Source: Spirosoma telluris
GTDB taxonomy: Bacteria > Bacteroidota > Bacteroidia > Cytophagales > Spirosomataceae
DNA: 64,000 nucleotides
Direction: 5' to 3'
Assembly (NCBI GenBank): GCA_003259005.1
Contig: QLII01000001.1
Coordinates: 2,310,501-2,374,500, forward strand
The notes under the pieces were generated by a model. It ran no database searches and was not told the DNA's origin. It saw only the letters and a list, made by a program, of their open reading frames with translations. This document shows, in pieces, positions 3,500-37,478 of this stretch (position 1 is its first letter; each line of letters begins with the position of its first letter). The position numbers and the translations under genes were made by a program.

Positions 3500-3629
3500 A
3501 GGAAATAATACGGATTGAGCTATTGCAGCCTGCATGATTTGTACAAGACTAGGCCCTAAAGCCTGGTTAGTTTTGTCACTTTATTGTCGCTTAGCAGGCT
3601 ACCTGGCCAACTCAGTTCTTAACGTGTCA

Positions 3630-6045
3630 ATGCATATGATTCGCTTTTCATTAGTTTCACTACGGTTACTCATGTTGATGGGTTGGCTGATCGGTTTACC
3701 TCCTCATCACAAGCTAGTAGCCCAGTCAGTTCCTCTCAGGGTAGCTAACTCGATCCGGTATGATTCAGCCGCCATCAGCCGAATCGCTGATTTTGGCCGG
3801 GTTTGGGGCGTGATTCGCTATTTTCATCCCCTGGCTGGTAAGGGCCAGTTGGATACGGATAGTCTGGTTATTGATTATCTAGAGCCCTGCTAGCCAGTCC
3901 TACACCAGCGAGTTTCAAACGATCGTTGGCTCAAGTATTTACTCGATTAGGTGATCCCCAGTCCGGCATCGTTACGCCCAACAGCCTATCGACCCATACG
4001 ACCTGGTTTAACGAACGTCCACATCTCGTTCATAGGCACTTGCCTACGGGTGAAGAGTACCTGGCACTGTCTCAACAAGCGTGTCAACAGCCAATCCAAG
4101 CCGACTCGTTAATTGAGCAGTTGGCCAGTCAGTCGGCGGTGGTGATTGACTTGCGTAATGAACGAATTGATAATGCCCTGGGGCTAGCCCAATACACGCA
4201 GTTTGTTCAACCACTTATCAGTCAACTCATTGAGCAGCCGCTGGTGCTCCCTACCGCCCGCAGCTTTTATTACCACGGTCTTTTGCGGCAAGATTTTCCC
4301 GATGAGTTAAATCTATTACCGATCGAAAAAGATGGGCGCATGGAGCAGCATTATCAAGTTTACTTTGGTTTGCGCAATATGTCGGAGGGGGTATACCTAC
4401 CCACAAACCCGCTCAAAAAACGAATCAATACGAAGATCTGCTTCCTGATCAATCGCTTTGTTAACGTCAATACATTGAAAGCCGTCATGGCGCTGCATCA
4501 CCGGCAGCGTTGCCGGGTTCTCTTGGAAGGAGACATGCCTGACTATATGTACGGGGAATCCTACCGAATGGCCTTGGCCGATCAGGTGTCGGTTAAGATT
4601 AGAACAAGCGAAGTTTTGTATGAAGATGGTACCCTGGGCAGTGATGTCGATCAACAGCTTAGTGAACAGGCGGATACCTCCTGGCAGGGTCCCTTGCTTG
4701 GGCAAGCGAGTCAACTCCTGCATCAGCCGCTACGGCCTTTGACCCCAAAACCGGTGCAAAACATGGTCTATATTCGCCACCCTCAGTCGGATTATCCAGC
4801 CAACCAAACACCTACTGCTGTGCTACGGTTGCTGGGCTTATTTAATGGGTGGAACACCATCCATTATTTTTCCCCCAATAAACCCTTGCTCGCTCTTCCT
4901 TGGAATAAAGCGCTGCCCCACTTCATTCCCCAGTTTCTGGCGGCCTCCACGGACTCACTCTATTTCATGGCGTTGATGAAGCTAACGGGATCGCTACGGG
5001 ATGGGCATAGCATCCTGATTAGTAAACAAGGAGGGCGGTCCCCCAAGGAATACTTGATGGAAATCTGCCCATTGGCGTCAAAGTGTTTGGTCAAAAAACG
5101 TATATCATTAACGTACTCGCAGATACCACCCAAACTAATGCGCTGGCGCAACTCCAGCCGGGCGATGAACTAGTCCGTATTGATCAACAAACACCGGCAC
5201 AGCTAGCAGCCCAATGGCGGGACTATTTACCGGCCTCGAACCAAGCTGGTTTTGATCGGGAATTTTACATGAGCTGGTTAACCGTAGGCCGCTCAGGCAG
5301 TCGATCCCAAGTGACCATCAAACGGAAAGGTCAATACCAAACGGTATGGCTTACCCGTATTGCCAGGGACCACTACTACAGCTTATGGGGCCAAACCGCG
5401 CCTAGTCCTAAACTGCCTCCCTACATGAGTCGTTTATACGGCAACATTGGTTACTTACGCATTAATCGGCTTTACTGCTCGCAACTGGATAGTATAGCCA
5501 ACTATCTGAAAGATTGTTCCATCATTTTGTTGGATTGCCGAGGCTATCCTCGTGACAGCCAGTTCGGCAGTCATCTGGCCTCCTACATTGCCCATCAACC
5601 GGATACGGTGGCTTACAATCGATTTCCTTTTATTTTCAGTCCCAATTCCAGCCAGCAGTTAACGAGTACGGAGTACCAGATTATTCAGCCCTCGCGAAAT
5701 ATATTTCTAAAACATAAGCGGTATATCCTGCTGGTTGATGAAGGAGTGCAAAGCCAAGGAGAGGGTAACGTAATTGGTTTACAAGGGGTTAGCCAATCGA
5801 TTACCGTTGGTACACCAACGGCAGGGGCCAACGGCATGGCAATTACCCTAAAATTCCCGGGTCAATATTTTAGTTTCTTTTCGGGCTTTGGCGAGTATTA
5901 TCCCGATAACACACCCAATCAACAACGGGGAGTCAAAATTAATCAACTCGTTCCCATCACGTTAGGGGGTTATTTAGGCGCGCGCGATGAGATCTATGAA
6001 CAAGGTTTACGCTTAGCTAAGCAGCTAGTCAACGCACGGAACTGA
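3630..6045 (+). CDS. Tandem S41 (C-terminal processing type) peptidase, two frameshifts
   Basis: A secreted protein of about 800 residues with an N-terminal hydrophobic signal (MIRFSLVSLRLLMLMGW) from the ATG at 3630 or 3636. Three overlapping frames read as one protein if single-base breaks near 3886 and 5053 are repaired. Two S41-like modules follow each other. The first opens with GRVWGVIRYFHPLAGKG, and where the catalytic Ser/Glu segment should be it reads NRFVNVNTLK, so it looks inactive. The second opens with LFNGWNTIHYFSP and LTGSLRDGHS, has a PDZ-like stretch (LQPGDELVRID) and keeps the catalytic-type SQGEGN segment before GTPTAGANG. S41 enzymes cleave C-terminal segments of exported proteins; the substrate here is unknown. 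The breaks may be sequencing errors or real decay. Confidence 0.75.
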
Positions 6046-24424: not shown

Positions 24425-26523
24425 CTATCCTTTCATAAATCGTACTAAGCCAACTTCTACTAACAAAAAGGCTAGTGCCGCTAGTAGAAAGTATTTCCAA
24501 AGGCTTTTACCCAGGTTTTCCTGTTCCAGGACCTGTACAAAATCGCCATCCTGAATGCTGTCGAACACTTCGACATTTGGCTGACTGGCGAAAGCACGGC
24601 GTAATTCATCGGCCGAATAAAAATCCATTGCCGACTCCTGATTTCCGTGGTTAAACGCCAACAATCGTTCTGTTTTACCTTCACTGTTCTGTAGGGCGTA
24701 ATAGCCCGCTTCTACTTCCTGACCGGCCGCCAGTTCATTACTTTTAGGCATTTCAAGGAGAAGTTGATTGCCCACTACGCGCTGAATGGGAATAATCTCC
24801 AGTTTGTCGCGCTTCAGCTTATACACTGATCGTTCGGATGGATTATTAACGGGGATGGTCAACAAATTATCATCGAACGAGTAGGCCGTCCGCTGTGCCC
24901 GAACACTTAGCGCAGCCATCTTATACATGACCGGAACGAACAAGGCATGTTCGGCCAGATTACCATACGCAGACGACAGCGGACTAGCGAGTATATAAAC
25001 AGTACCCATTGATGACCCGCCACCCACTCTTGACTGCGTTAGCAATGGGCTACCATCGCGCAACGTTAATAGGCGATCTCCCGCACTCCATCGCCAGACC
25101 GGGGCCACCGTTGGCATATTCAGTGGTTCTGACTGATAACTCTGCTGGAACACATCACGGAAGAAAGGGGTACGGCGGTCAGGATCGGCTACCGGTACAG
25201 AAGATGGGGTTGTACCCGACGAGGTACTAATTTGAATAGTACCAATACCTAAAGCTCGCAAAAATGGCTCATACGAAGTCCCGTTTGGCACAGCAGGCGG
25301 AATAATCGTTAAACTACCACCCTGCCTTACAAAGCGTTCCAGTTCAGTGCGTAACGTACCGTTAATGTCGGTAACACCTTCCAGAATCACCAAATCAGTT
25401 TCTTTTAGCTGCCCAACGTCGAAATTCTGTGCATTGAAACTCCTGCGCACAAACAGGCTATCATTCGAATAAACCGCATCCACATAGCCCGTTGGCCGTC
25501 CTGCCGGGGCTGCCTGCTGTTCGTACAAATGTAGCACCCGAACAGCAGGCGAGGCTTCGATCACGAAAAAATACTGGTTATCGAATGTGATCGGGTAATC
25601 TTCAAAAACAATCCGGCCCCTATGGTAGCCTTTTGAAGTTACATTGAAATTAAGTGAAACCGTTGCCGAACCACCCGGCGGCAACACGGCCGAAGCCGTA
25701 GAGGTTTGGGCATCATCTAAGTACAGGCGTATTGGAAGATTTTTGACATTTTCCCGTCCCGCGTTATTGAGCTTCACATTAATGCTGTTATTCTGCATTT
25801 CCCGGATAAGGGGGTACTCAGCCAAACCGAATCGACATACACGTTCTTCGTTGACTGGGCATCCAGGGGGACAATAAACAGCCGATCCGTCGTGTCGATC
25901 TTCAGCCGGGACAAATCACCTGCGGTGCTTTTCTGAAAATCTGAAAACCAGAACAGCTGATTGCGTCCACCTGGATTGAGTGAACTCAACAAATTACGTT
26001 GCCGCCGATAAACTGCTTCGAGCGAGCGGGGCGTATGGGCAAAGCGAATAGAGGTAACCCGGTCACGCACCGATTCGGCAGTTCCGGCCTGCTGCTCTGC
26101 CGCCGAAAAATCGTTGGTAAGTAACTGGAGCGAGGACGCATTACGAAACAACGTGAGTAGTTCATCCAATTTACCGGTGGCAATGTCTAAATAGCGTTTC
26201 GTGTTACGCTCATTCTGCATACTGAATGAGTTATCGACATACAAACTGGTAACGCCCTGCCGCGACAGGCCTAATTTATTTTTGCTGGGAATAAAGGGTT
26301 GTGCAAAAGCCAGCACCAGGCACGCCAGAAACAAACAACGGCATGCCAGAATGAGCCAGTGTTTCAGCCGCCGAAACGATTTGGTTTCGGTTTGAACGCT
26401 CCGGAGCAGCGCCACATTCGTGAAAAATACCCGCCGTGTCCGCCGGAAATTAAACAGGTGAATGGCAATCGGAACCGAAACGGCCATCAGGCCAACTAAG
26501 AAGGAAGGATAAAGAAAATTCAT
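24425..26523 (-). CDS. BatA-like membrane protein with vWA-type domain
   Basis: About 699 residues. The N-terminal aerotolerance (BatA) domain starts MNFLYPSFLVGLMAVSVPIA and has two membrane helices. It is followed by a vWA-like segment with a MIDAS-type DNSFSMQ near residue 100. The middle and C-terminal part is periplasmic (FVIEASPAVRVLHLYEQQ, LVILEGVTDINGTLRTELER), with a last helix at the C-terminus (FLLAALAFLLVEVGLVRFM). The frame breaks at GGGGG 25810-25814; one more base gives VWLSTPLIREMQNN. BatA-like proteins form membrane complexes often linked to MoxR ATPases, but none is adjacent here. Confidence 0.82.
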
Positions 26524-26686: not shown

Positions 26687-27391
26687 TTAGTCAGGGATTG
26701 TGATTTCGTAAAATGCTGTTTTGGTTTGCAATACATCGGTATAGGTAATTGATCCTTGCTCGTCTCCTATTGTTATAAACTTGTCGATGGGCGTATGTCC
26801 AACAACTTGATAAAAACCAGCCAGATAGTCCACTTTCGTTTCCGAACGATCGGCCCAGATTGGCCCACTGAAGGGATCGTGCCCTCCTCGTCTGGAGCTG
26901 ACGTCGAATAGCAGATTCTGCCCCTGAATCGACTCATTATGAACTTCATTCAATAATCTGGCCAGATTATAGGTAGGCGTACTTGGAAGTGCTTCATTTC
27001 CCGTATTCTTCAGGAATCGATTTAGCCACTTATTCGTAACTCCAGCATGTGTGAACAAGTACAACCCATGCTGGTATGCCATCTGAAACTGACTTTTATG
27101 TTTGATAAACAAGTCCGTCAAATCAGATTGCGCCCACGCCCGAAACCCAGAACAGCGGTAGTTCGGAAAGTGCAGGTATTGCGCATCGTGGTTTCCAATA
27201 AGTAATACAAACTTCTCTGGCTGCTTGATTTTCAGTTGAATGATCTCATTCAGATTTGTATAAATTGTCTCGTCGTCAACAATGTAACTGTCTGTATAAT
27301 CACCGAGAAAAATGACTCGGTCGTATAGAGTAAGGTTAGCTTCCTTCCAGACGGTTCGTCCGTGCAGGTCGCTGATGGTAAGGAATTTCAT
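26687..27391 (-). CDS. Calcineurin-like metallophosphatase
   Basis: 234 residues. Metal-binding motifs of the metallophosphatase superfamily are clear: DLHGR (D-x-H) near residue 8, GDYTDS (GDxxD) near 31, GNHDAQ (GNHD) near 66, a later His in THAGV near 114, and GHTPID near 198. The compact diesterase/phosphatase core has no added domains. The ATG overlaps the stop of the upstream polytopic membrane protein by four bases (ATGA), so the two are translated together and may act together. Substrate unknown; small nucleotides or phosphoproteins are possible. Confidence 0.88.
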   Translation of the reverse strand: MKFLTISDLHGRTVWKEANLTLYDRVIFLGDYTDSYIVDDETIYTNLNEIIQLKIKQPEKFVLLIGNHDAQYLHFPNYRCSGFRAWAQSDLTDLFIKHKSQFQMAYQHGLYLFTHAGVTNKWLNRFLKNTGNEALPSTPTYNLARLLNEVHNESIQGQNLLFDVSSRRGGHDPFSGPIWADRSETKVDYLAGFYQVVGHTPIDKFITIGDEQGSITYTDVLQTKTAFYEITIPD

Positions 27392-28431
27392 GAACGATCT
27401 TTTCTCCGCCAGATAAAACCATCCAGCACATAATGGGTCATTTGTGGAAGTGCAAGTAAGGGAACCAACATCGATAATAAATACGGCTCCTTCACAACTG
27501 GCAGTACCTGGAACCAGCTAAAAATCGAAGCGTGTTCGCGCCAGACGAGCCCATCCCACAAACCCTCTTCAAGATAAGCCAGAATACTGATCAAACTAAG
27601 AAAAATAATCCAATTATAGCTTTTTAACGCCAATTTGTGTCGTTGTGTCTGTCCTAAATTTACTCTCGGTTGGTCGCTGATCCAAATCAGGGCCATATAC
27701 GGAATACCGTGCGATAGTACATTAAGCATGGTAAAGGCCAGATCACCATTAAACTCTACAATTCCAAAATACCAAGAAACTACCGTACCAATTACTAACA
27801 GATTCCGAGGCCAGTTTATCCAGCGAAGACGATTATATAGCCAACTTTCTTTACCTACATATAGGACCATCAGGAGCCAGTAGCTATAGGTAGCTATCGT
27901 TTTTAGCCAGTCCAGTTCAGGCTGCACAAAATCGCCTTCAACGAACCAGTTAAAATGCCGACCGGGTGTCAGGTGCCACCAGAGAATAGGGTACACAGTG
28001 GCCGCATAAATCACTACCGTATCGATCCAGGATGACCAGACAGGCACGCTTTCGGTACGGCTGTAGATACGCATAAAGCCGTACTGTTGACGAATAAAGT
28101 GAAAGACAGCCAGATACGCCAGACATCGCCAGAACCATAACCCATTGACACTGTGTAACAAGACTCCAGTCAAATAGCAAGTCAACGGAATCGCGAGGAA
28201 CAACAGTCGCTGTTTCTGGAAACGGGCCCGGTTAAAATAGGTGCGAAATAATGTACTATATACATGAGCAACATCGACCAGAAGAATCAGCACAACCCAG
28301 CCAACAAGGGGCATATCGGCCGTTGTTTTGAACCGCTCCGGCAGCAAGGCTACGATCAGTAAGGCCACGAAGGGCGGGGCCAGTACATACAGGCTATCGA
28401 ACCGGGCATTTTTTATCCAGGGCTGTTTCAT
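27388..28431 (-). CDS. Polytopic inner-membrane protein, unknown
   Basis: 347 residues with roughly eight hydrophobic helices (for example YVLAPPFVALLIVALLP, MPLVGWVVLILLVDVAHVYS, LLFLAIPLTCYLTGVLL, WLLMVLYVG, YNWIIFLSLISILAYL, LLSMLVPLLALPQMTHYVLD). The His residues in VAHVYS, FHFIRQQYGF, LSHGIPY and MTHYVLDGFIWR lie at or near the membrane and could bind a metal or cofactor. I do not recognise a named family. It is 69 bases downstream of the flavoenzyme gene and overlaps the metallophosphatase gene by four bases, placing it at the tail of the SpeD-DUF4178-DUF350-SpeE operon. Confidence 0.7.
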   Translation of the reverse strand: MKQPWIKNARFDSLYVLAPPFVALLIVALLPERFKTTADMPLVGWVVLILLVDVAHVYSTLFRTYFNRARFQKQRLLFLAIPLTCYLTGVLLHSVNGLWFWRCLAYLAVFHFIRQQYGFMRIYSRTESVPVWSSWIDTVVIYAATVYPILWWHLTPGRHFNWFVEGDFVQPELDWLKTIATYSYWLLMVLYVGKESWLYNRLRWINWPRNLLVIGTVVSWYFGIVEFNGDLAFTMLNVLSHGIPYMALIWISDQPRVNLGQTQRHKLALKSYNWIIFLSLISILAYLEEGLWDGLVWREHASIFSWFQVLPVVKEPYLLSMLVPLLALPQMTHYVLDGFIWRRKDRS

Positions 28432-28446
28432 AGGGCTGGTTTATTG

Positions 28447-28516
28447 AATGGATAATGTAGAATGAATAATTGATCCACCTAATAATCAACGGCTAGCCCA
28501 TTATCCATTATTCATT
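28447..28516. repeat. AATGAATAATG-type intergenic inverted repeat, copy 1
   Basis: GGATAATG-TAGAATGAATAAT (from 28447) and its inverse CATTATCCATTATTCATTA (to 28516) flank 30 bases. The right arm supplies the last codons and stop of the flavoenzyme gene (MNNG-stop). Related copies are at 37479-37546 and 41215-41276. Confidence 0.6.
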
Positions 28517-30173
28517 ACCTTCACCGCTTCCTGAGCTGCCCGAATTCCCTGATAAAAGGCTTCTTCAAAAATAGAAATACCACTTAAATCAGAGTGGGCA
28601 AAAAACACACGATTCGCCAGCGTCTGAGCGGCACGCTGCCGCTCCGCCCCCCAGATAAAACCGGGTGCAGGGGCAATCATACCATGCCCCCAAATCCAGA
28701 TATCAGCCTGTGAAACGTAGGGTGTAATGCCCGGATGTGCCACTTCCAGTTCTTCCATAATATGCGAAAGCCATTGCTCATAAGGCGTAGTGTAGGCAGC
28801 CCGGCGGGCCACATCGGGTTCCAGATCCGTCAAGGGTTTATAATACGTAATCACTTTTTGGAGACCACTTTGAAGATCCTGATGGTTAGCTGTAATGTAG
28901 CCAACCGAAGCCGTATCATACAGCACATTATCCCAACATAATGGCAACCCCCTTCCCTGCGGTAGCCCCGAAATAGTCAGGTTCGCCACCATCCAGGGTG
29001 CATAATGAAAACCCGTCAAGGCAGCTCGTTCCGGATCTACAGTTCGCAACAGGTGCTTGTTGATAAACTGCGGAGTTGCCATAATCACCTTCCGGGCCTT
29101 AATCTCTATGGTACAGTTAGCAATCACGTCGCAGGTCTTCACGATCACACCATCCGTATCATTGAGTTGCAGATCGTAGCCCAATAAATGCTGACGAATC
29201 GGCGAGTTAGCCTGCTTTCGGAGTTGATCAACCAGAAAACCATTGCCCTGTGGCCAGGTTAGCACCGATGCGGCACCAGCATTTGCGGCCTGTCCCTTCC
29301 GCGATGCGAAATAATGAATACCTGCCCAGGCCGAGGTCGTTTCAAGCGTAGCTCCATAGTCATCGCGACAACAATAGGTCAGGTACCAGCGTAAATAAGG
29401 AGATGTAAATCCTTCCTTATCCAGGTAACTCGCAAATGAACTCGTATCCAGTTGCCGGAACTGAGCATCCGTGGAGGAGCGGTCGAGTGGAATGGCAAAC
29501 ACATCGAGTCCATCGCTGCCTTTCGCCAGTTTATACCGTTCGACCAGTTGAAAGAAGCGGCTGATCTGCTGTTTATCACTGTCGGGAACTCCCGTTTCGG
29601 GCACCAATCCTTCCTGCCAATACCCGTTGATAAACAGCCGTTCTTCGGGATCGTGGCAAAGAAAATAGTCGTTGTAAATGGGTCGTTTGTTTGCGTCGTC
29701 CCCTGTAATAACATCGCTTTCACGCAAAAACTGGAGCAGCTCCTCACTCCGCAGATCAGGAACGGGCAGGTAATGAGCGCCAAAGGGATAGGCCGAAACG
29801 GCATTTTGACCACACGCTGCATTCCCACCTGTATGCGCATCCATTTCCACCAGCAGCACGTCCTGAACACCCAGTCGCTGTAGCCATCGCCGAGCTGACA
29901 AACCGGACACACCACCGCCAATAATCAGCACATCGGTCGTTAATCGCTCGGCAATGGTAAGGTATGCAAGTCAGCCATTACGCGCAGTTTGTGCCCAGTC
30001 TGATGATTGGCACCCACGATCCCTCCCTTGATGTGGCTAATGGAGCGGGACGATGTACAGGAGGACAACGTATTGACGCCAGTCATTAAGGCAACTACGC
30101 CTACGCTGGCCTGTGCCAAAAATTCGCGTCGGCTGGTACTTGAGCCAGCGTCGTGGTCAGCGTTATTGTCCAT
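28501..30173 (-). CDS. Tat-exported FAD-dependent oxidoreductase (flavin amine oxidase-like)
   Basis: About 557 residues from the ATG at 30173. The N-terminus has a twin-arginine signal (TSRREFLAQASVGVVALMTG), so it is folded with FAD before export. After a single-base break near 29956 the frame continues TTDVLIIGGGVSGLSARRWL, the dinucleotide-binding motif (GxGxxG), then VEMDAHTGGNAACG. The C-terminal segment FFAHSDLSGISIFEEAFYQG is the second FAD contact typical of flavin amine oxidases and desaturases. Its start overlaps the SpeE-like gene, so it belongs to that operon. Substrate unknown; a polyamine or a polyamine conjugate is a tempting inference, not shown. Confidence 0.78.
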
Positions 30174-31710
30174 AGGGAGCCCACTCTTCTTCAAACGACT
30201 GAACCAGAACCTGATTATTCAATTTATTTACCTCCACGGGTACTTCTGACATGTCGGGTGGAAAATAAAGCATGTCGTAGATGGTGGGCGTATTGACATA
30301 GCGAAGCCCTTTGGGTAATGGACCACCCACCCGCCAATGATGGTTTCGTAACGCCAGCACATACCCCCATTCGCCAAAGGACGGCACGTAGGTATGATAG
30401 GGAATCGTCTGAAAACCAACCGCTGCCAGTGTATTTCGAATACACCAGAACGATTTCCTGGCCACATAGGGCGAGGTCGATTGCACCACAACCAACCCAT
30501 CGGGAGCCAGCCGTTTTTCCAGTTCGGCATAAAAGGTGGTGCTGTATAATTTACCAATCGAATAATTGGAGGGATCGGGAAAGTCGACAATGACGACATC
30601 ATACTGAGTGGTGTCCTGCCGTATCCAGGTAAAGGCATCGTTGTTAATAACCTGTACCTTCGGCGACAATAATGATCGCTGATTTAACTTGAGCAAGGTT
30701 TCATTTTGCTGAAACAGGCTTGTCATGCCAGGGTCCAAGTCGACGAGTCGGATATGATGTACACTTGAGTATTTGAGTAGCTCCCGTACGGCCATCCCGT
30801 CTCCCCCACCCAACACCAGTATTCGTTGCGCATTGGGGCGTGCCTGCATAGCTGGATGTACGAGGGCTTCGTGATAGCGGTATTCATCGGCTGAACTGAA
30901 CTGCAGATTACCATTCAGATAGAGCCTCAACTCGCGGTTATTGCGGGTCAGTACAATGCGTTGATAGGGTGTACTTTTGCTGTAAATAACGGTATCCTGA
31001 AACGTTACGCCCTCGGCATAACTCATGATCTGTTCGGCATACACAAATCCGGCCGTCAAAATGGCCACAGATGCTGCCAGAACGAGCGTAAATCCGGGCC
31101 GGAATGAGCGGGTTTCCGCAAAACGATACAACAGAAATCCAGCGACACCGATGTTCAACAATCCAAAAAACAAAGACGTCCGAATCAGGCCGAGTTGTGG
31201 GATCAAAATAAGCGGAAAGATCAGCGAAGCCAGCAGAGCGCCAATGTAATCGAAGGTAAAAACGCGGGAAACTAGCTCTTTGAACGACAGTTGATTCTCC
31301 AGAATGCGCATTAGCAGTGGGATTTCCAACCCAACCAGAATCCCGGTCAGCCCCACCAATGTATACAGCACCAGCCGAAACGATGCGACGTAGTCAAACA
31401 GGACAAATAGTAACGGGGCACTGCATCCACCAACAATACCGACCAGTAATTCGATACGAATAAACCACTTCAGCAGGTTGCCATCAAGGTACCTGGAAAG
31501 CCACGACCCAATACCCATCGAGAAGAGGTAAACCCCAATGATGGTCGAAAACTGCATGACCGAATCGCCCAGCAAATAGCTGGCGAGCGTACCCGCTACG
31601 AGTTCGTAAATAAGTCCACAGGTCGAAATAACAAATACCGATACCAGCAAGAGCCAGTGCAGAGAGGTTAATCCCGGCCTTACCGCTACCCGTTTTTCTT
31701 CGCTAACCAT
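30163..31710 (-). CDS. Membrane-embedded spermidine synthase-like aminopropyltransferase
   Basis: 515 residues from the ATG at 31710 (an in-frame ATG at 31743 lies deeper in the upstream gene). Residues about 15-215 form some seven membrane helices (SLHWLLLVSVFVISTCGLIY, FSTIIGVYLFSMGIGSWLSR and others). The cytoplasmic C-terminal half is a SpeE-type Rossmann methyltransferase-like fold: LVLGGGDGMAVRELLKYS binds the decarboxylated SAM, IRLVDLDPGM, and VDFPDPSNYSIGKLYS holds the catalytic-type Asp. The fused membrane half is typical of a widespread uncharacterised SpeE subfamily. It sits between DUF350 and the Tat flavoenzyme, overlapping both. Confidence 0.88.
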   Translation of the reverse strand: MVSEEKRVAVRPGLTSLHWLLLVSVFVISTCGLIYELVAGTLASYLLGDSVMQFSTIIGVYLFSMGIGSWLSRYLDGNLLKWFIRIELLVGIVGGCSAPLLFVLFDYVASFRLVLYTLVGLTGILVGLEIPLLMRILENQLSFKELVSRVFTFDYIGALLASLIFPLILIPQLGLIRTSLFFGLLNIGVAGFLLYRFAETRSFRPGFTLVLAASVAILTAGFVYAEQIMSYAEGVTFQDTVIYSKSTPYQRIVLTRNNRELRLYLNGNLQFSSADEYRYHEALVHPAMQARPNAQRILVLGGGDGMAVRELLKYSSVHHIRLVDLDPGMTSLFQQNETLLKLNQRSLLSPKVQVINNDAFTWIRQDTTQYDVVIVDFPDPSNYSIGKLYSTTFYAELEKRLAPDGLVVVQSTSPYVARKSFWCIRNTLAAVGFQTIPYHTYVPSFGEWGYVLALRNHHWRVGGPLPKGLRYVNTPTIYDMLYFPPDMSEVPVEVNKLNNQVLVQSFEEEWAPYGQ

Positions 31711-31909
31711 GTATGGCCGAACTGATAATGATGGATACGGCAATCATGAAGGCAGCTGCCAGAATGGCCAACGCTACATTCTGCTCATCGAGAATCTTTT
31801 TCCAGAGATTTTCAGGCGTAATTTTTTCGATTATCACAAAACTGATGACCAGAATAATGATCCCTATGAATGAGTAAACGATGGAGGCTATAATGTATTT
31901 GTATTCCAT
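31703..31909 (-). CDS. DUF350 small membrane protein
   Basis: 68 residues, a single DUF350 unit with two membrane helices (IVYSFIGIIILVISFVIIE and VALAILAAAFMIAVSIIISS) joined by a short charged loop (KITPENLWKKILDEQN). DUF350 proteins (YjfL type) recur beside SpeE-like and DUF4178 genes; their molecular role is unknown. It starts 12 bases after the small glycine-rich membrane protein and its stop overlaps the SpeE start. Confidence 0.85.
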   Translation of the reverse strand: MEYKYIIASIVYSFIGIIILVISFVIIEKITPENLWKKILDEQNVALAILAAAFMIAVSIIISSAIHG

Positions 31910-31921
31910 GTTGAATGTAGG

Positions 31922-32119
31922 TTATTTGTGATAAAAGCGGGAATAGCCACGGCTACCACCGGAATGACTTGCACCACCGGAATAGCCATTTCGGCCTTCG
32001 GTAGTTTCGTTATCGTCGCCCAGCAAACGTGTTCCGGTAAAACCAGCCCATGCAAATCCGGCTACTACAACAAGCGCAACAACGACATAGTATTTGATTT
32101 TAGCGAGTTCTTTACTCAT
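31922..32119 (-). CDS. Small single-span protein with Gly/Ser/His tail
   Basis: 65 residues. One membrane helix (YYVVVALVVVAGFAWAGFTG) is followed by a short polar tail (GRNGYSGGASHSGGSRGYSR) with two His. No family recognised. It lies 5 bases after the DUF4178 stop and 12 bases before DUF350, so it is clearly translated within the operon and may be a subunit of the membrane complex. Confidence 0.7.
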   Translation of the reverse strand: MSKELAKIKYYVVVALVVVAGFAWAGFTGTRLLGDDNETTEGRNGYSGGASHSGGSRGYSRFYHK

Positions 32120-32124
32120 ACCAA

Positions 32125-33434
32125 TTAGTCATCTGATTCTGCATAGAAAACTTTCGAATAATCGCTGTTCGACCATCGCTGGCTCTCACGCCACAGTTTC
32201 CGGATATACTGAAAAACCGGATAAATGACTAATAACAAGAGCAGCAAAGCCATATTTGAACCCAGAAACGGATTTTTTCTGACAATGATCCGGAATGTAA
32301 TAGACTGTCCAGGTTCTCTGGCGGGGTAGATATTTAGGTGATAACGCCCCGCTGGTATCCTTGAAAGTACAGCGTCATCGTCATTCGTACCTTCAGACCA
32401 GCTTTCGCCACTTTCTACTCCGTGATAGTATTCTAGTGTTTTACTAAATTCGTAGACCCTACCTGACTGCTCGTTTATGAGGGTAACGGGCAACTCAAGC
32501 CATTGATTGTCAAGCGTAGCCGATAGATTGAACGCCAGAGCTGATTGAGTACTTATGTCAAATGAAGGCGTAATAATTGGCTTGACCGTACCGGTAGAAT
32601 CGGATTCAGCCTGATAAGACTCGCTAAGAAGTTGTTTGGATGGTTTTACGATACTGATAATAACCTGAAGCACAAGCATTGCCACCACCAGCATAGCCGT
32701 GAACGCCAGCAAGACGCCCCCCGATCAGCAGGATCGGCAGGTTCAATTGCGCCAACACCTATTGGGTGAGGTAAACTATTTTCGTTCATGCCAAAGGCAT
32801 TAGCCACATCCTTGCGGGATATATGCCGGGCCTTGTACCAGTCAGACTGGTTCTCATTCTGCTCACTAACCAGCATATAGGGTGGCTGAATATATTCTGA
32901 AATGGTTAGGCTTGCATCCTCCAGAATGTTCCAGTCGAACTCCCCTATGGCATTGACAATCTCTGCTCTATACCGATTGTAAAGCCAATATTGCCCTTTG
33001 TCAGTATTAATAGTATACGTTTTACCGCCCGCATGGTAGTGCGAATACGTCTTCGCTGTCGGTTCAATAACCATCCAATGCCCATTGTACTCCGATAGCT
33101 GTATTGTACTGCCATCCTTCTGCAATAGCATGTATTCAGACCACTTGTAGGAAGCCCCTGCTTCTTTTTTATGCATGAACCCTACAACCCGAACAAACTG
33201 ATTATTCAGGTATCCTTCAGTTCCCATAGGCAGAATAACCGCAGCAACACCCTCAGAGAACGTGGTCAGTATTTCAGGGGGTTCTTCGTTTTCGTATTTA
33301 AAAAATGTATGGCAGGTTGGGCACCCGTAGTAGGAACTACCTGATACGTCATAATACGTAATTGAGTTTTGGCATGAAGGGCAATTGAGGATGTCCGACG
33401 AGGCAAACTGGCCGGAAGTAGCCATGTTGGTCAT
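32125..33434 (-). CDS. DUF4178 protein with zinc ribbon and membrane helices
   Basis: About 435 residues. The N-terminus has a rubredoxin-like zinc ribbon (CPSCQNSITYYDVSGSSYYG, then CPTC). It is followed by a DUF4178 core (YLNNQFVRVVGFMHKKEAGA, WSEYMLLQKDGSTIQLSEYN, NGHWMVIEP, ISEYIQPPYM) and two membrane helices (VVAMLVLQVIISIVKP and NMALLLLLLVIYPVFQYIRK) around a beta-rich region. The frame breaks in the CCCCCC run at 32717-32722, so this is probably an undercall. The ATG overlaps the SpeD stop (ATGA). DUF4178 proteins of unknown function co-occur with DUF350, SpeD and SpeE. Confidence 0.8.
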
Positions 33435-33784
33435 CGGGCAAGTTCCTGTTTAGAAAGTTCGGTAGCATCAAAATGAGCCAGCACATCCCTATAAAATTGG
33501 CGAGCTTTAGCCGTATTATCCTGCATATAGTTGGACAGGAACACATCGAAGGTAGCAATTCCCAGCTCCGGCCAGGTATGAATTGACACATGCGATTCGG
33601 TCAGGCAGACCACCGCCGTGAATCCCCCATTCGGAAAAACGTGATAGACCTCCCCAACCTTAGTCAGCGCTAATGAGTCGATTAACTGGTCGAATATGGC
33701 CTGACACCCCAGCGCCTGCGTAAGGCAATCAGGCGACGAGGCAAACGTTGCCAGCAAATGCAGGCCCGGTCGGTAAGCGGTCAT
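33431..33784 (-). CDS. speD: SpeD-like pyruvoyl decarboxylase (S-adenosylmethionine decarboxylase family)
   Basis: 117 residues, the length of the bacterial class I SpeD. The self-cleavage motif is intact: TESHVSIHTWPE near 62-73, where cleavage before Ser makes the pyruvoyl cofactor and the following His assists. The second conserved site, a Cys in the DLFTCG-type segment, reads DVFLSN here, so the proton-donor Cys seems replaced by Ser. SpeD makes decarboxylated SAM for SpeE, and some homologues have turned to ornithine or arginine decarboxylation, so the substrate is uncertain. It heads the operon that contains DUF4178, DUF350 and a membrane SpeE. Confidence 0.85.
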   Translation of the reverse strand: MTAYRPGLHLLATFASSPDCLTQALGCQAIFDQLIDSLALTKVGEVYHVFPNGGFTAVVCLTESHVSIHTWPELGIATFDVFLSNYMQDNTAKARQFYRDVLAHFDATELSKQELAR

Positions 33785-33892: not shown

Positions 33893-33923
33893 AAAAAAGC
33901 CCCAACTGGTTTGCAGTTGGGGC
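33893..33923 (-). terminator. Intrinsic terminator of the infB operon
   Basis: GCCCCAACTG (33899-33908) and CAGTTGGGGC (33914-33923) form a perfect 10-bp stem with a 5-base loop. On the minus strand it is followed by six U. It begins 29 bases after the infB stop and ends before speD. Confidence 0.92.
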
Positions 33924-33951
33924 CGATATCTGACTGCACAGGCAGTCAGAA

Positions 33952-36900
33952 TTATAGCGTCCGTTTTACTTCTTTCAATTCGAAGCTTTCAATCACGTCA
34001 CCCACTTCGATGTCGTTGAAGTTCTTGATGCTCAGACCACATTCGTAGCCGAACTTCACATCACTAACATCCTCTTTGAAGCGTTTCAGCGCGCTGATTT
34101 CGCCTGTGTGTATAACAATGAAGTCGCGGATGATTCGGATCTTGTTGTTCCGTTTGATGTTACCTTCCGTTACGTAGCAACCTGCCACCGTACCGATTTT
34201 GCTAATCTTGAATACCTCACGGACTTCAATATTACCAACGATAACCTCTTCAACTGTCGGAGCCAGTAAGCCTTCCATGGCATCTCTCACCTCATTGATC
34301 GCATCGTAGATAATTGAGTAGAGACGGATTTCAATCTGCTCTTGTTCAGCTAACCGACGCGCACTCGAAGAAGGTCGTACCTGGAAGCCAACAATTACGG
34401 CATCCGAAGCCGAAGCCAGCAGAACATCCGATTCAGAAATCTGGCCAACTGCTTTGTGGATGATGTTCACCTGAACCTCTTCTGTAGACAGCTGCAGCAA
34501 TGAATCAGACAGAGCTTCTACCGAACCGTCCACGTCACCTTTTACAATCACGTTCAGTTCTTTGAAGGTACCAATTGCTTTCCGGCGACCGATTTCTTCG
34601 AGCGTAATGTGCTTGCGGGTACGTAACGTCTGCTCACGCAGGAGTTGCTCACGTTTGTTCGCAATTTCACGAGCCTCACGGTCCGTTTCCATTACATTGA
34701 ACTTATCACCCGCTTGGGGTGCACCAGGTAGACCCAGAATCTGAACCGGTGTTGCAGGTCCAGCTTCTTTAATGCGTTCACCCCGGTCGTTGGTCATAGC
34801 CCGAATACGGCCATAATGCGCTCCAACGAGCATAATGTCGCCCTGACGAAGGGTACCGTTTTCGACCAATACAGTGGATACGTAACCCCGACCTTTGTCG
34901 AGCGAGGCTTCGATAACCGTACCCAATGCACGTCGACTTGGATTGGCTTTCAGTTCCAGCAGTTCTGCTTCAAGCAGCACTTTTTCGAGCAGGTCATCGA
35001 CACCTAGACCAGATTTCGACGAAATTTCCTGCGCCTGATATTTACCACCCCATTCTTCAACGAGCATGTTCATCGAGGCCAGTTCAGCACGAATTTTCTC
35101 AGAATCTGCACCTGGTTTATCGATTTTCGAGAAAGCAAAGACGATAGGTACACCGGCAACCTGAGCGTGGTTAATCGCTTCACGTGTTTGCGGCATGATA
35201 CTATCATCAGCAGCAATTACGATAATAACGACGTCGGTTACTTTAGCACCCCGAGCACGCATGGCCGTAAAGGCTTCGTGACCTGGTGTATCCAAGAACG
35301 TGATCATACGATCGTCGCTGTTTTTTACACTATAGGCACCAATGTGCTGGGTTATCCCCCCTGCCTCGCCAGCTGCAACTTTCGCACGGCGGATATAATC
35401 AAGTAAGGATGTTTTACCGTGGTCAACGTGACCCATGATCGTAACGATTGGCGCACGAGGCTGTAGATCATCTGGTTCATCAGCTTCCACGTCGATACTG
35501 GCTTCGGTTTCATCTTCAGCCGATATAAACTGCACGTCGTAACCAAATTCATCGGCGATAACGGTAATCGCTTCAGCATCCAAACGCTGGTTGATCGACA
35601 CGAACATCCCGAGGTTTAAACAAACCGAGATAACTTCGTTGATCGACACATCCATCAGTGATGCCAGATCGTTTGCGGAAACGAACTCGGTCACTTTCAG
35701 GGTTTTTGCTTCCAGTTCCTCCTGCTCATTCAGTAAACGACGATCATCTTCGCGCTGGCTCCGGCGATCACGTCGGCGGTCAGCACCCCGGTTGGGCGTA
35801 TTACCCTGCATCCGGGCATTGGTTTGCTGAATCGCCTTCCGAACATCAGCCTGCGTTGGTGCTTCACGGCGTCCACCACCACCTCGGTTGGCATTGTTAC
35901 CAGTACCACCACTGCGGTTTTGGCCCTGTCCGCTTCCTCCCCGATTGGCGTTGTTACCTCCGCCAGAACGGTTGTTATTCGTATTATTGTTGTTATTACC
36001 AGTACCGGCCTGACCTCCACCACCGCGATTGGCAGTATTAGCCCCTTGATTCTGACCAGTACCACTACCAGCGCGATTAGCTGGTGCCTGAGCACGATCT
36101 CCTTCGCGTGGTGCACCTTGTCCCTGCTGGCGGTTTCCCTCACGAGGAGGAGTATTGCCACCTGCGGCCTGGTTACGATCGCCTTGCGGACGATCACCAG
36201 GAGTGCGGTTTGCCGGACTACGGTCGCCGTCGCGTGGGCCACGGTCATTACGGTTATTACCGCCCTGACCCTGTTGACCACCGCCACCCTGATTCGGCTG
36301 TCCTGTGCTCCCAAGAGCACCCTCGCGGCCACCACGAATCCGTTTGCGCTTTTTCTTATCTGCGTTGCTGTTGCCTCCCCCTGGCGAGGGTTATTAACAG
36401 GCAATTCAATTTTACCAAGAATTTTCAGTCCACCCAGTTGATGACTACCAGCGGCCCGAATCGTTTCAGTTGGAGCCTCAGCCTCAGTAGGAGGAGTTAC
36501 AACAGGCGGTTTCGCTTGCGGAGTCTCTGTCTTTGGCTTAACATAAGCCGTTGGCTTCGGTGTTTCAACACGAGCAACTGGCTTTTGTACTTCAGGCGTA
36601 ACTACAGGTTTTGGGGCCTCTACTTTTACTACCGGAACCTCTACAGGCTTCGGTTGCGTAGCTACCACGGGGGGCACCTCCTTAGGAGGAGTCGGTATCT
36701 CGACCGGAGTCGGCGTCACCTGAACAGGTGCCACTTGAACCGGAGTTGGTTTTATCTCAACAACGGGTTCAGACACAACAGGTTTGGGAGCCTCTACTTC
36801 TGGCTTGACAACGGGTGGCTGAACAGCCACTGGTTTGGGCACTTCGGCTACTGCTGGTGGGGGGTGCACTAACTGTCGGCACAGGGATATCCACCGGCTT

Positions 36901-37395
36901 CGGTATCTCGACCGGTTTTACTTCCTGTGGTGGCGCTACTTTCGCTTGTGGTGCAGGCGGTGCGGGCACGGCTGGTTTTGCATTCAAATCAATTTTACCC
37001 ACAACTTTCAATCCTGGCAAACCGGTCTGAGCAGTTTGTAGAATTGGCTTCGACTCAACTGGAGCCACTTTGGGTAATTCAGCCGGAGCTGATTCTGGTT
37101 TGTTTTCGACAATTGGACGTCTCGCGTCATCACGACGGTACAAAACGACATCCTCCTCCTTAGAACGCGGTGGCTCGGCGACCGCAACCGGCGGTTCGGC
37201 CCGGCGAGCTCCGTTCAGGAGTTCCGTTGATTTATACTCCTTCGCTAACACCTCCAACTGTTCCATGTTGATTTTGGTGTTAGGATTAATTTCGACCTTA
37301 AACCCCTTGGCAGACAGACTACTCGCAACAGAGGATAATCCTTTGTTGAGAATTTTTGCCACTTGGCTCAGGCGCATTGACTTTTCTTCTGCCAT
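33952..37395 (-). CDS. infB: Translation initiation factor IF-2
   Basis: About 1147 residues from the ATG at 37395 ([20 protein letters not shown]). IF-2 places fMet-tRNA on the ribosome. The N-terminus (IF2_[21 protein letters not shown]) leads into a very long Pro/Val/Lys-rich and then Gly/Asn/Arg-rich linker. The GTPase part has [20 protein letters not shown] (G1), [20 protein letters not shown] (G3) and [10 protein letters not shown] (NKxD as SKID), then the C-terminal domains. Two single-base breaks, at GGGGGG 36859-36864 and CCCCC 36377-36381, split it into three frames. Because the gene is essential, these are best explained as sequence errors. It is third gene of the rimP-nusA-infB operon. 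Confidence 0.95.
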
Positions 37396-37478
37396 ACTTC
37401 GGTCTATATTCCGCAAATTTAATGGTTGTTGGTATCTTATGAACACCACTTACCACAATAAAAATCCCGCACTTTGAT

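Follow-up and report, generated by a model that had tools for sequence, protein, structure and literature searches.

Which molecule receives the aminopropyl group is the question raised by a gene cluster of Spirosoma telluris that combines a membrane-bound spermidine synthase homologue (membrane SpeE) with a homologue of S-adenosylmethionine (AdoMet) decarboxylase (SpeD). The cluster lies at positions 26687-33784, on the minus strand, of a 64,000-nucleotide stretch of contig QLII01000001.1 (hereafter the window). It also encodes a DUF4178 protein, a DUF350 protein, a small protein with a Gly/Ser/His-rich tail, a flavoenzyme with a twin-arginine translocation (Tat) signal, a polytopic membrane protein and a metallophosphatase. 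Our answer is a tentative one: in place of a spermidine pathway, the operon would encode an envelope machine for aminopropylation of the small protein at its terminal lysine. We infer both the acceptor and the site of modification from comparison of sequences.

The conserved operon and its proteins

The comparison covered 120 loci: 40 are stretches around membrane-SpeE matches in genomes of the same order (Cytophagales), and the other 80 are the named loci that ranked best among 509 relatives of the window SpeE. A locus was called type A if it had a flavoenzyme or a DUF4178 match. This type comprises 97 of the 120 loci, namely 17 of the 40 same-order stretches and all 80 named loci, the latter by selection, because they were chosen as the best SpeE matches. 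Five type A loci are duplicates (L035/L092, L041/L121, L042/L137, L045/L142, and L046/L149). The recurring set is SpeD–DUF4178–small protein–DUF350–membrane SpeE–Tat flavoenzyme–polytopic protein. Within the type A loci, DUF4178 and the small protein are found in all 97, the flavoenzyme in 96, SpeD in 95, DUF350 in 90 (by BLAST) and the polytopic protein in 82; part of the missing genes would fall at contig ends, and others, such as those in Larkinella, would not. The gene order, whose recurrence in relatives had been put forward as a check, is constant in type A loci with few exceptions (e.g., L111 and L120, with duplicated or displaced genes). Among the matches listed, the closest named relative of the window SpeE is from Spirosoma endophyticum (89% identity). 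Two local variants can be observed: in Solitalea (L120) the DUF4178-small protein-DUF350 trio is present twice, and in Chitinophaga (L125) the DUF4178 protein is longer (635 amino acids, aa), apparently with a second N-terminal unit.

The original prediction considered the small protein, the polytopic protein and the metallophosphatase to be additions specific to this lineage. The counts given above contradict this view for the first two, and the polytopic protein is a core member of the operon. The metallophosphatase occurs in 4 of the 120 loci (two of Fibrisoma, one each of Spirosoma terrae and Spirosoma sp. 48-14); it is ruled out as a core member and indeed looks like a lineage-specific add-on. 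Of the two terminal genes, whose constant presence had been raised as a question, one is therefore mostly retained and the other is rare.

The same association is seen at the level of genomes. The genomes that match the small protein strongly (E <= 5e-5) are the same 19 of the 194 in the order as those with a strong flavoenzyme match (E <= 1e-130), and all 19 carry a type A SpeE, 18 of them at >= 649 bits and one (G087) in two pieces. This co-occurrence agrees with the earlier suggestion of a dedicated envelope machine built around a membrane aminopropyltransferase and a Tat flavoenzyme. Membrane SpeE of all types exceeds its cut-off in 68 of the 194 genomes, and weak flavoenzyme-like matches are widespread (166/194). 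A strong match to the polytopic protein was found in 17 of the 19 type A genomes and also in G177 (G177:C1:636064-637122, locus L179), a genome for which no membrane SpeE match is listed. In 14 additional genomes, each of which carries a more distantly related membrane SpeE above its cut-off, a homologue of the polytopic protein was detected at E < 1e-78; weaker matches extend to 21 further genomes. When the loci of these fourteen genomes and G177 were fetched, the polytopic homologue was located beside a flavoenzyme homologue in five (G034, G077, G090, G118, and G143), two of which also have an adjoining DUF350 protein detected by BLAST; no flavoenzyme neighbour was seen in the other 10 of the 15. 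In some of the more distant genomes the polytopic homologue is located apart from SpeE, an arrangement that still links some parts to one process. Scattering of the genes in relatives, named originally as evidence against a joint function, is thus absent from type A loci and appears in part in distant genomes.

SpeE consists of an N-terminal membrane part fused to an aminopropyltransferase domain with the spermidine-synthase catalytic motifs, including the DxxDP aspartates. In all 96 type A sequences that entered the motif and charge counts (the 97th, shorter than 441 aa, was left out), the motifs DEYRYHE, GGGDG, D.D, DA, and DFPDP do not vary, which points to an intact active site. The window protein scores below the soluble-SpeE equivalog TIGR00417 (136 vs 249.55 bits). 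Its AlphaFold model (mean pLDDT 84, pTM 0.66) matches solved aminopropyltransferases; the catalytic fold and motifs are shared with soluble spermidine/thermospermine synthases (1uir, 1inl, 6bq2), whereas the N-terminal membrane part and the operon partners distinguish membrane SpeE from them. The modelled membrane part has six helical segments, and a short helix (236-247) leads into the enzyme domain. One segment is 54 residues long (154-207), and in our reading it comprises two transmembrane helices, which would give seven in total. With this reading, the Lys/Arg bias predicts an inside N-terminus and an outside enzyme domain for 96/96 type A and 23/23 other sequences, the sidedness being based on helix ranges, hydrophobicity and charge, with loop limits that presume seven helices.

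The Tat signal of the window flavoenzyme exceeds the NCBIfam cut-off; an alignment of 53 sequences has an invariant Arg of the twin-Arg pair and a lipobox-like Cys in at least 90% of them. The larger of the two pieces into which the gene is split in this assembly passes the Pfam PF01593 gathering score (30.2 vs 19.8 bits), and the nearest solved chains are amine oxidases and the spermidine dehydrogenase SpdH, matched mostly over the part that binds flavin adenine dinucleotide (FAD). The protein is thus a predicted amine-oxidase-like enzyme. The DUF4178 protein has an N-terminal Cys4 zinc-ribbon-like part followed by the DUF4178 domain; judged by eye, it contains a transmembrane segment, an outer domain and a second transmembrane segment. 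For the polytopic protein, no Pfam match was found in the window at E 0.1, with weak scattered Pfam matches otherwise, and searches by sequence in PDB (E <= 1) and with Foldseek (E <= 0.001) returned nothing. Its model is confident (pLDDT 89.4), and residues D53, H56, H111, Q115, H153, D230, H241, E288, E289, H333, and D337 are invariant in 52 sequences, the His, Asp and Glu residues lying mostly inside predicted helices. We suspect that this protein is a membrane metalloenzyme.

The His-Lys end as a candidate acceptor

The small protein, for which no Pfam family was found at E 0.1, has one hydrophobic helix followed by a Gly/Ser/His-rich tail that ends with Phe-Tyr-His-Lys in the window. Homology identified it in 67 of the type A loci, and position together with hydrophobicity in a further 29, with no pick in one locus; the ending was never used. 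By these picks the protein ends with -HK in 94 of the 97 loci (88 distinct sequences among the 94). In the remaining three, where the pick was wrong or missing, a search for Lys-ending frames revealed an -HK open reading frame (ORF) at the expected place. The last two residues are the sole invariant columns in an alignment of 43 sequences (A5), Tyr or Phe occupies position -3 in 75 of 94 proteins, and the preceding Gly/Ser/His-rich stretch is variable. Over the 97 loci, the lysine is encoded by AAA (74) or AAG (23), the histidine by CAT (52) or CAC (45), and the stop codon is TAA (72), TAG (16), or TGA (9). Since both codons and stops vary, selection acts on the protein. The varied codons, the three stops and the varied gaps also rule out the -HK end as a by-product of a translation signal of the DUF350 gene. 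As a control, the ends of the DUF4178 protein, SpeE (His in 48/97), the flavoenzyme and the polytopic protein vary. Judged from the sequences, the unusual feature of the small protein is a constant end behind a freely varying tail. It had been overlooked by the original prediction, as had the replacement of a catalytic Cys in SpeD and the frameshifts in this assembly, both described below.

Similar tail proteins can be observed beyond the clade. In 12 of the 23 type B and C loci of the order, tail proteins end with Lys, for example ...RYGK, ...RGGK, or, in lipoprotein-like proteins, ...GGK. All six plasmid loci fetched (61 plasmid records matched) encode a Lys-ending tail protein, and they span Gemmatimonadota and Alpha-, Beta- and Gammaproteobacteria: Novosphingobium and Burkholderia (both ...SHK), Gemmatirosa (...HGK), Ensifer and Alteromonas (both ...SGK), and Tritonibacter (...RVK). 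The endings in the type B, type C and plasmid loci are not independent evidence, because these proteins were recognised partly by eye or with a Lys or Lys/Arg filter. A divergent layout is present in the Burkholderia cenocepacia record (L157), where the genes for DUF4178, a Ser-His-Lys tail protein and SpeD (minus strand, approximately 3549-4800) are divergent from those for SpeE and the flavoenzyme.

A further comparison is provided by Escherichia coli, where YjfIJKLM-YjfC and YgiB-YgiC were reportedly described by Pederick et al. 2023 as peptide-spermidine ligase systems. YgiB and YjfM end with Gly-Gly and adjoin YgiC and YjfC, respectively, annotated as peptide-spermidine ligases; a YjfM encoded on a Salmonella plasmid also ends with -GG, and a DUF1190 search of plasmids gave matches from E. 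coli and Salmonella only. The accessible text of one report calls YgiC and YjfC peptidylpolyamine synthetases (PMC12568646). These systems resemble the operon in having a Gly/Ser-rich-tailed, membrane- or lipoprotein-like protein beside a polyamine-handling enzyme, and, in the yjf set, a DUF350 protein. They differ in the chemistry, with an ATP-grasp ligase and a -GG end there and an aminopropyltransferase and a -HK or -GK end here; no ATP-grasp ligase match was found among the operon ORFs.

In the proposed machine, SpeD would provide decarboxylated AdoMet. The helices of SpeE, which resemble those of the major facilitator superfamily (MFS), would reside in the membrane, possibly pass the donor across it, and hold the aminopropyltransferase domain at the outer (periplasmic) face. 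The small membrane-anchored protein would accept the aminopropyl group on the side chain of its C-terminal lysine. The lysine side chain and putrescine share a terminal aminobutyl group, so that the modified tail would end with N-epsilon-aminopropyl-lysine, which is chemically related to deoxyhypusine. The DUF4178 protein (zinc ribbon inside, second domain outside) and the DUF350 protein may form a platform, and the Tat-exported flavoenzyme, probably together with the His/Asp/Glu-rich polytopic protein, would act next on the tail. Such a polycationic tail might serve to stabilise the envelope or to signal stress, and the Gly-Gly-ending YgiB and YjfM with their spermidine ligases could represent a parallel route to a polyamine-tailed envelope protein. 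A fully extracytoplasmic version, in which SpeE exports decarboxylated AdoMet via its MFS-like helices and extends the tail lysine with an aminopropyl (polyamine) chain for processing by the flavoenzyme and a new membrane-enzyme family, is possible and rather doubtful.

Competing explanations and the origin of the donor

Several observations weigh against modification of the lysine by such a machine. A periplasmic transferase requires transport of the donor, a step that we postulate, and if SpeE segment 154-207 is one helix, the model would place the enzyme domain inside. The charge bias for an inside N-terminus of the small protein is weak (52 sequences for, 26 equal, 16 against; n = 94), and no tail protein was recognised in 11 of the 23 type B and C loci. 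For the E. coli parallel, the assignment of YgiB and YjfM as targets of YgiC and YjfC is our own, and these ligases are presumably cytosolic, so the geometry may differ. The C-terminal residue of SpeD is Arg in 95/95 type A copies, with varied codons and stops, and DUF350 ends with HG in 67 of 90; therefore, the small protein is not alone in having a fixed C-terminus. SpeD also has Ser at the position of the catalytic Cys in 95/95 type A copies. Finally, 14 of the 68 genomes with membrane SpeE over the cut-off yielded no SpeD match, five of them being listed as 100% complete, which weighs against SpeD as the universal source of the donor.

Another scenario is that the acceptor used by membrane SpeE is an amine of a lipid or glycan, with the small protein as a regulatory or docking subunit and -HK as a binding motif; MprF, which decorates lipids, offers a comparison for such cationisation. 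The fixed C-termini of SpeD and DUF350 fit mutual docking, and the transferase is predicted to be membrane-embedded with an intact active site. However, the tail before -HK is free in length and sequence, as would be expected of an exposed, modified end more than of a buried interface, and the nearest E. coli parallels are annotated as peptide-spermidine ligation. We consider this scenario somewhat unlikely and tentatively prefer the lysine of the small protein as the acceptor.

For the donor, the evidence from SpeD is mixed. The pyruvoyl-forming Ser and the His of the ESHxxxH region are kept in 95/95 type A copies, and the protein passes Pfam AdoMet_dc (73.9 vs 25 bits); it scores 61.7 bits against the AdoMet decarboxylase equivalog TIGR03330, under the cut-off of 75.65. 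The Cys position, equivalent to C83 of Thermotoga maritima, was judged by motif spacing against Cys-bearing homologues. According to the portion of PMC10407285 consulted, both processing and catalysis depend on the equivalent Cys. A SpeD match is present in all 19 type A genomes, in 54 of the 68 membrane-SpeE genomes and in 10 of the 126 others, three of which (G087, G157, and G161) hold membrane SpeE in pieces. The clade SpeD might then have another substrate or be a regulatory subunit, with SpeE using another donor, as in the genomes that lack SpeD. The universal Ser, the score below the equivalog cut-off, the 14 SpeD-less genomes and the existence of SpeD homologues with other activities (PMC10407285, same portion) fit this explanation. 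The retained pyruvoyl Ser and His do not, and SpeD in the related operons of Novosphingobium, Ensifer, Alteromonas and Gemmatirosa has Cys at that position, which makes a normal AdoMet decarboxylase partner plausible as the ancestral state. On balance, a clade SpeD that is not an AdoMet decarboxylase is improbable, and supply of decarboxylated AdoMet remains part of the lysine-modification model.

The metabolic setting bears on whether the product of the operon is simply a free polyamine, such as spermidine or an analogue, that is formed at the membrane and tuned by the flavoenzyme. In the window genome a single SpeD and a single SpeE were detected, both in the operon. It also has nspC, encoding carboxynorspermidine decarboxylase, over its cut-off (the partner dehydrogenase was not searched for), which indicates another spermidine route; spermidine can probably be made in this genome without SpeD and SpeE. 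No deoxyhypusine/homospermidine-synthase-like (PF01916) match was found in the window genome. An arginine-decarboxylase-like frame of 527 aa is present at G000:C1:5374057-5375382, matched in two stretches below the SpeA cut-off. A free polyamine as the product is consistent with the retention of every catalytic motif of SpeE and with its score of 678 bits (cut-off 472) for NCBIfam PRK03612, named polyamine aminopropyltransferase. Against it are the presence of nspC and the fact that polyamine synthesis needs no fixed small protein, DUF4178 or DUF350. Moreover, Li et al. 2019 reportedly saw no polyamine-forming activity of MFS-spermidine-synthase fusions. In the accessible part of Ravi et al., 2024 (PMC11237479), that work is cited for the idea that other substrates are aminopropylated. 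We regard free polyamine production as quite unlikely. Ordinary spermidine synthesis as the sole role was rejected, given nspC and the conserved membrane partners.

Layout of the locus and relation to known operons

The compact minus-strand layout described originally, including gene order, spacing, overlaps and gaps, is confirmed by the coordinates (Table 1). The SpeD and DUF4178 genes overlap by 4 bases, the small gene is flanked by gaps of 5 (32120-32124) and 12 (31910-31921) bases, the DUF350 and SpeE genes and the start of the flavoenzyme gene (30194) overlap, and the last two genes share 27388-27391. For SpeE, an ATG 33 bases downstream of the TTG may be the true start. Promoter-like sites show no excess (16 vs 14.1 in shuffled sequences), and only one -7-like box was seen upstream of SpeD.

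Table 1. Features of the aminopropyltransferase operon in the window.
Feature	Position	Strand	Details
SpeD-like, class 1b AdoMet decarboxylase homologue	33431..33784	-	117 aa; AdoMet_dc E 1.5e-20
DUF4178 protein	32125..33434	-	split ORFs 32646-33434 and 32125-32712; DUF4178 E 2.9e-9
Small tail protein	31922..32119	-	65 aa; candidate acceptor
DUF350 membrane protein	31703..31909	-	68 aa; DUF350 E 2.3e-13
Membrane SpeE	30163..31743	-	TTG start; Spermine_synth E 3.3e-38
Tat-signal, lipobox-like FAD amine-oxidase-like protein	28501..30194	-	split ORFs 29940-30194 and 28501-29931; Amino_oxidase E 3.7e-7
Polytopic protein (TM8)	27388..28431	-	347 aa; no Pfam family
Calcineurin-like metallophosphatase	26687..27391	-	Metallophos E 1.5e-7; outside the conserved operon
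Intrinsic-terminator-like hairpin	33898..33924	-	between the upstream IF-2-like gene and the operon; consensus scan only

The order and the named domains hold, and two of the eight genes are interrupted in this assembly (9.09 Mb, 4 contigs, listed completeness 94.65%): the DUF4178 frame is broken near 32718-32721 and the flavoenzyme frame near 29952-29970. These breaks look like assembly indels rather than biology, because both genes are intact in the S. endophyticum locus L073, as single frames of 429 aa (DUF4178) and 553 aa (flavoenzyme). Relative to S. endophyticum, the neighbouring BatA-like (24425-26523) and IF-2-like (33952-37449) genes are frame-broken too, and the window assembly seems to be indel-rich; the names IF-2, BatA, PspA, and DUF2170 were given by eye to genes beyond the operon. 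Decay of the operon in this strain would also explain two genes out of frame. However, the similarly broken neighbours, together with the single frames of SpeE, SpeD, the small protein, the DUF350 protein and the polytopic protein, make decay very improbable.

The type of neighbourhood is known. The operon represents a clearly delimited variant of it in Bacteroidota and includes a core membrane protein that is unclassified. AdoMet decarboxylases partnered with MFS-spermidine-synthase fusions are said to have been described by Li et al. 2019, who reportedly thought them polyamine-independent and named no acceptor. Thus, SpeD beside a membrane aminopropyltransferase is common to both cases, and only here is a candidate acceptor, one whose C-terminus is fixed, put forward. 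In the accessible part of Ravi et al., 2024 (PMC11237479), operons associated with PspA and CesT/Tir contain a 7TM-spermidine synthase (seven transmembrane helices), DUF350, DUF4178 and a lipoprotein; variants have an AdoMet decarboxylase and a polyamine oxidase, and others lack the PspA-CesT/Tir dyad. Envelope roles were proposed in that part, which establishes neither acceptor nor function. As far as it goes, the operon described here shares membrane SpeE, DUF350, DUF4178 and a tail protein with them, as well as SpeD and the oxidase with some variants. It differs in that a short transmembrane protein with an -HK tail replaces the lipoprotein, in the additional core polytopic protein and in the Ser for Cys in SpeD; no PspA or CesT/Tir match was found among the ten operon ORFs. 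In the open-access literature searched, as far as its text was available, no description of the fixed -HK end or of the Ser for Cys in SpeD was found. A search of the same literature for a C-terminal lysine or periplasmic aminopropyl acceptor gave no match, which does not show absence in print.

In summary, a candidate acceptor with a fixed C-terminal lysine makes the question of the aminopropyl acceptor testable by mass spectrometry. If the proposed modification is true, it would be an extracytoplasmic, polyamine-like modification of a protein and a chemical relative of hypusine, and it would link the aminopropyltransferase systems with the peptide-spermidine ligase systems of E. coli.

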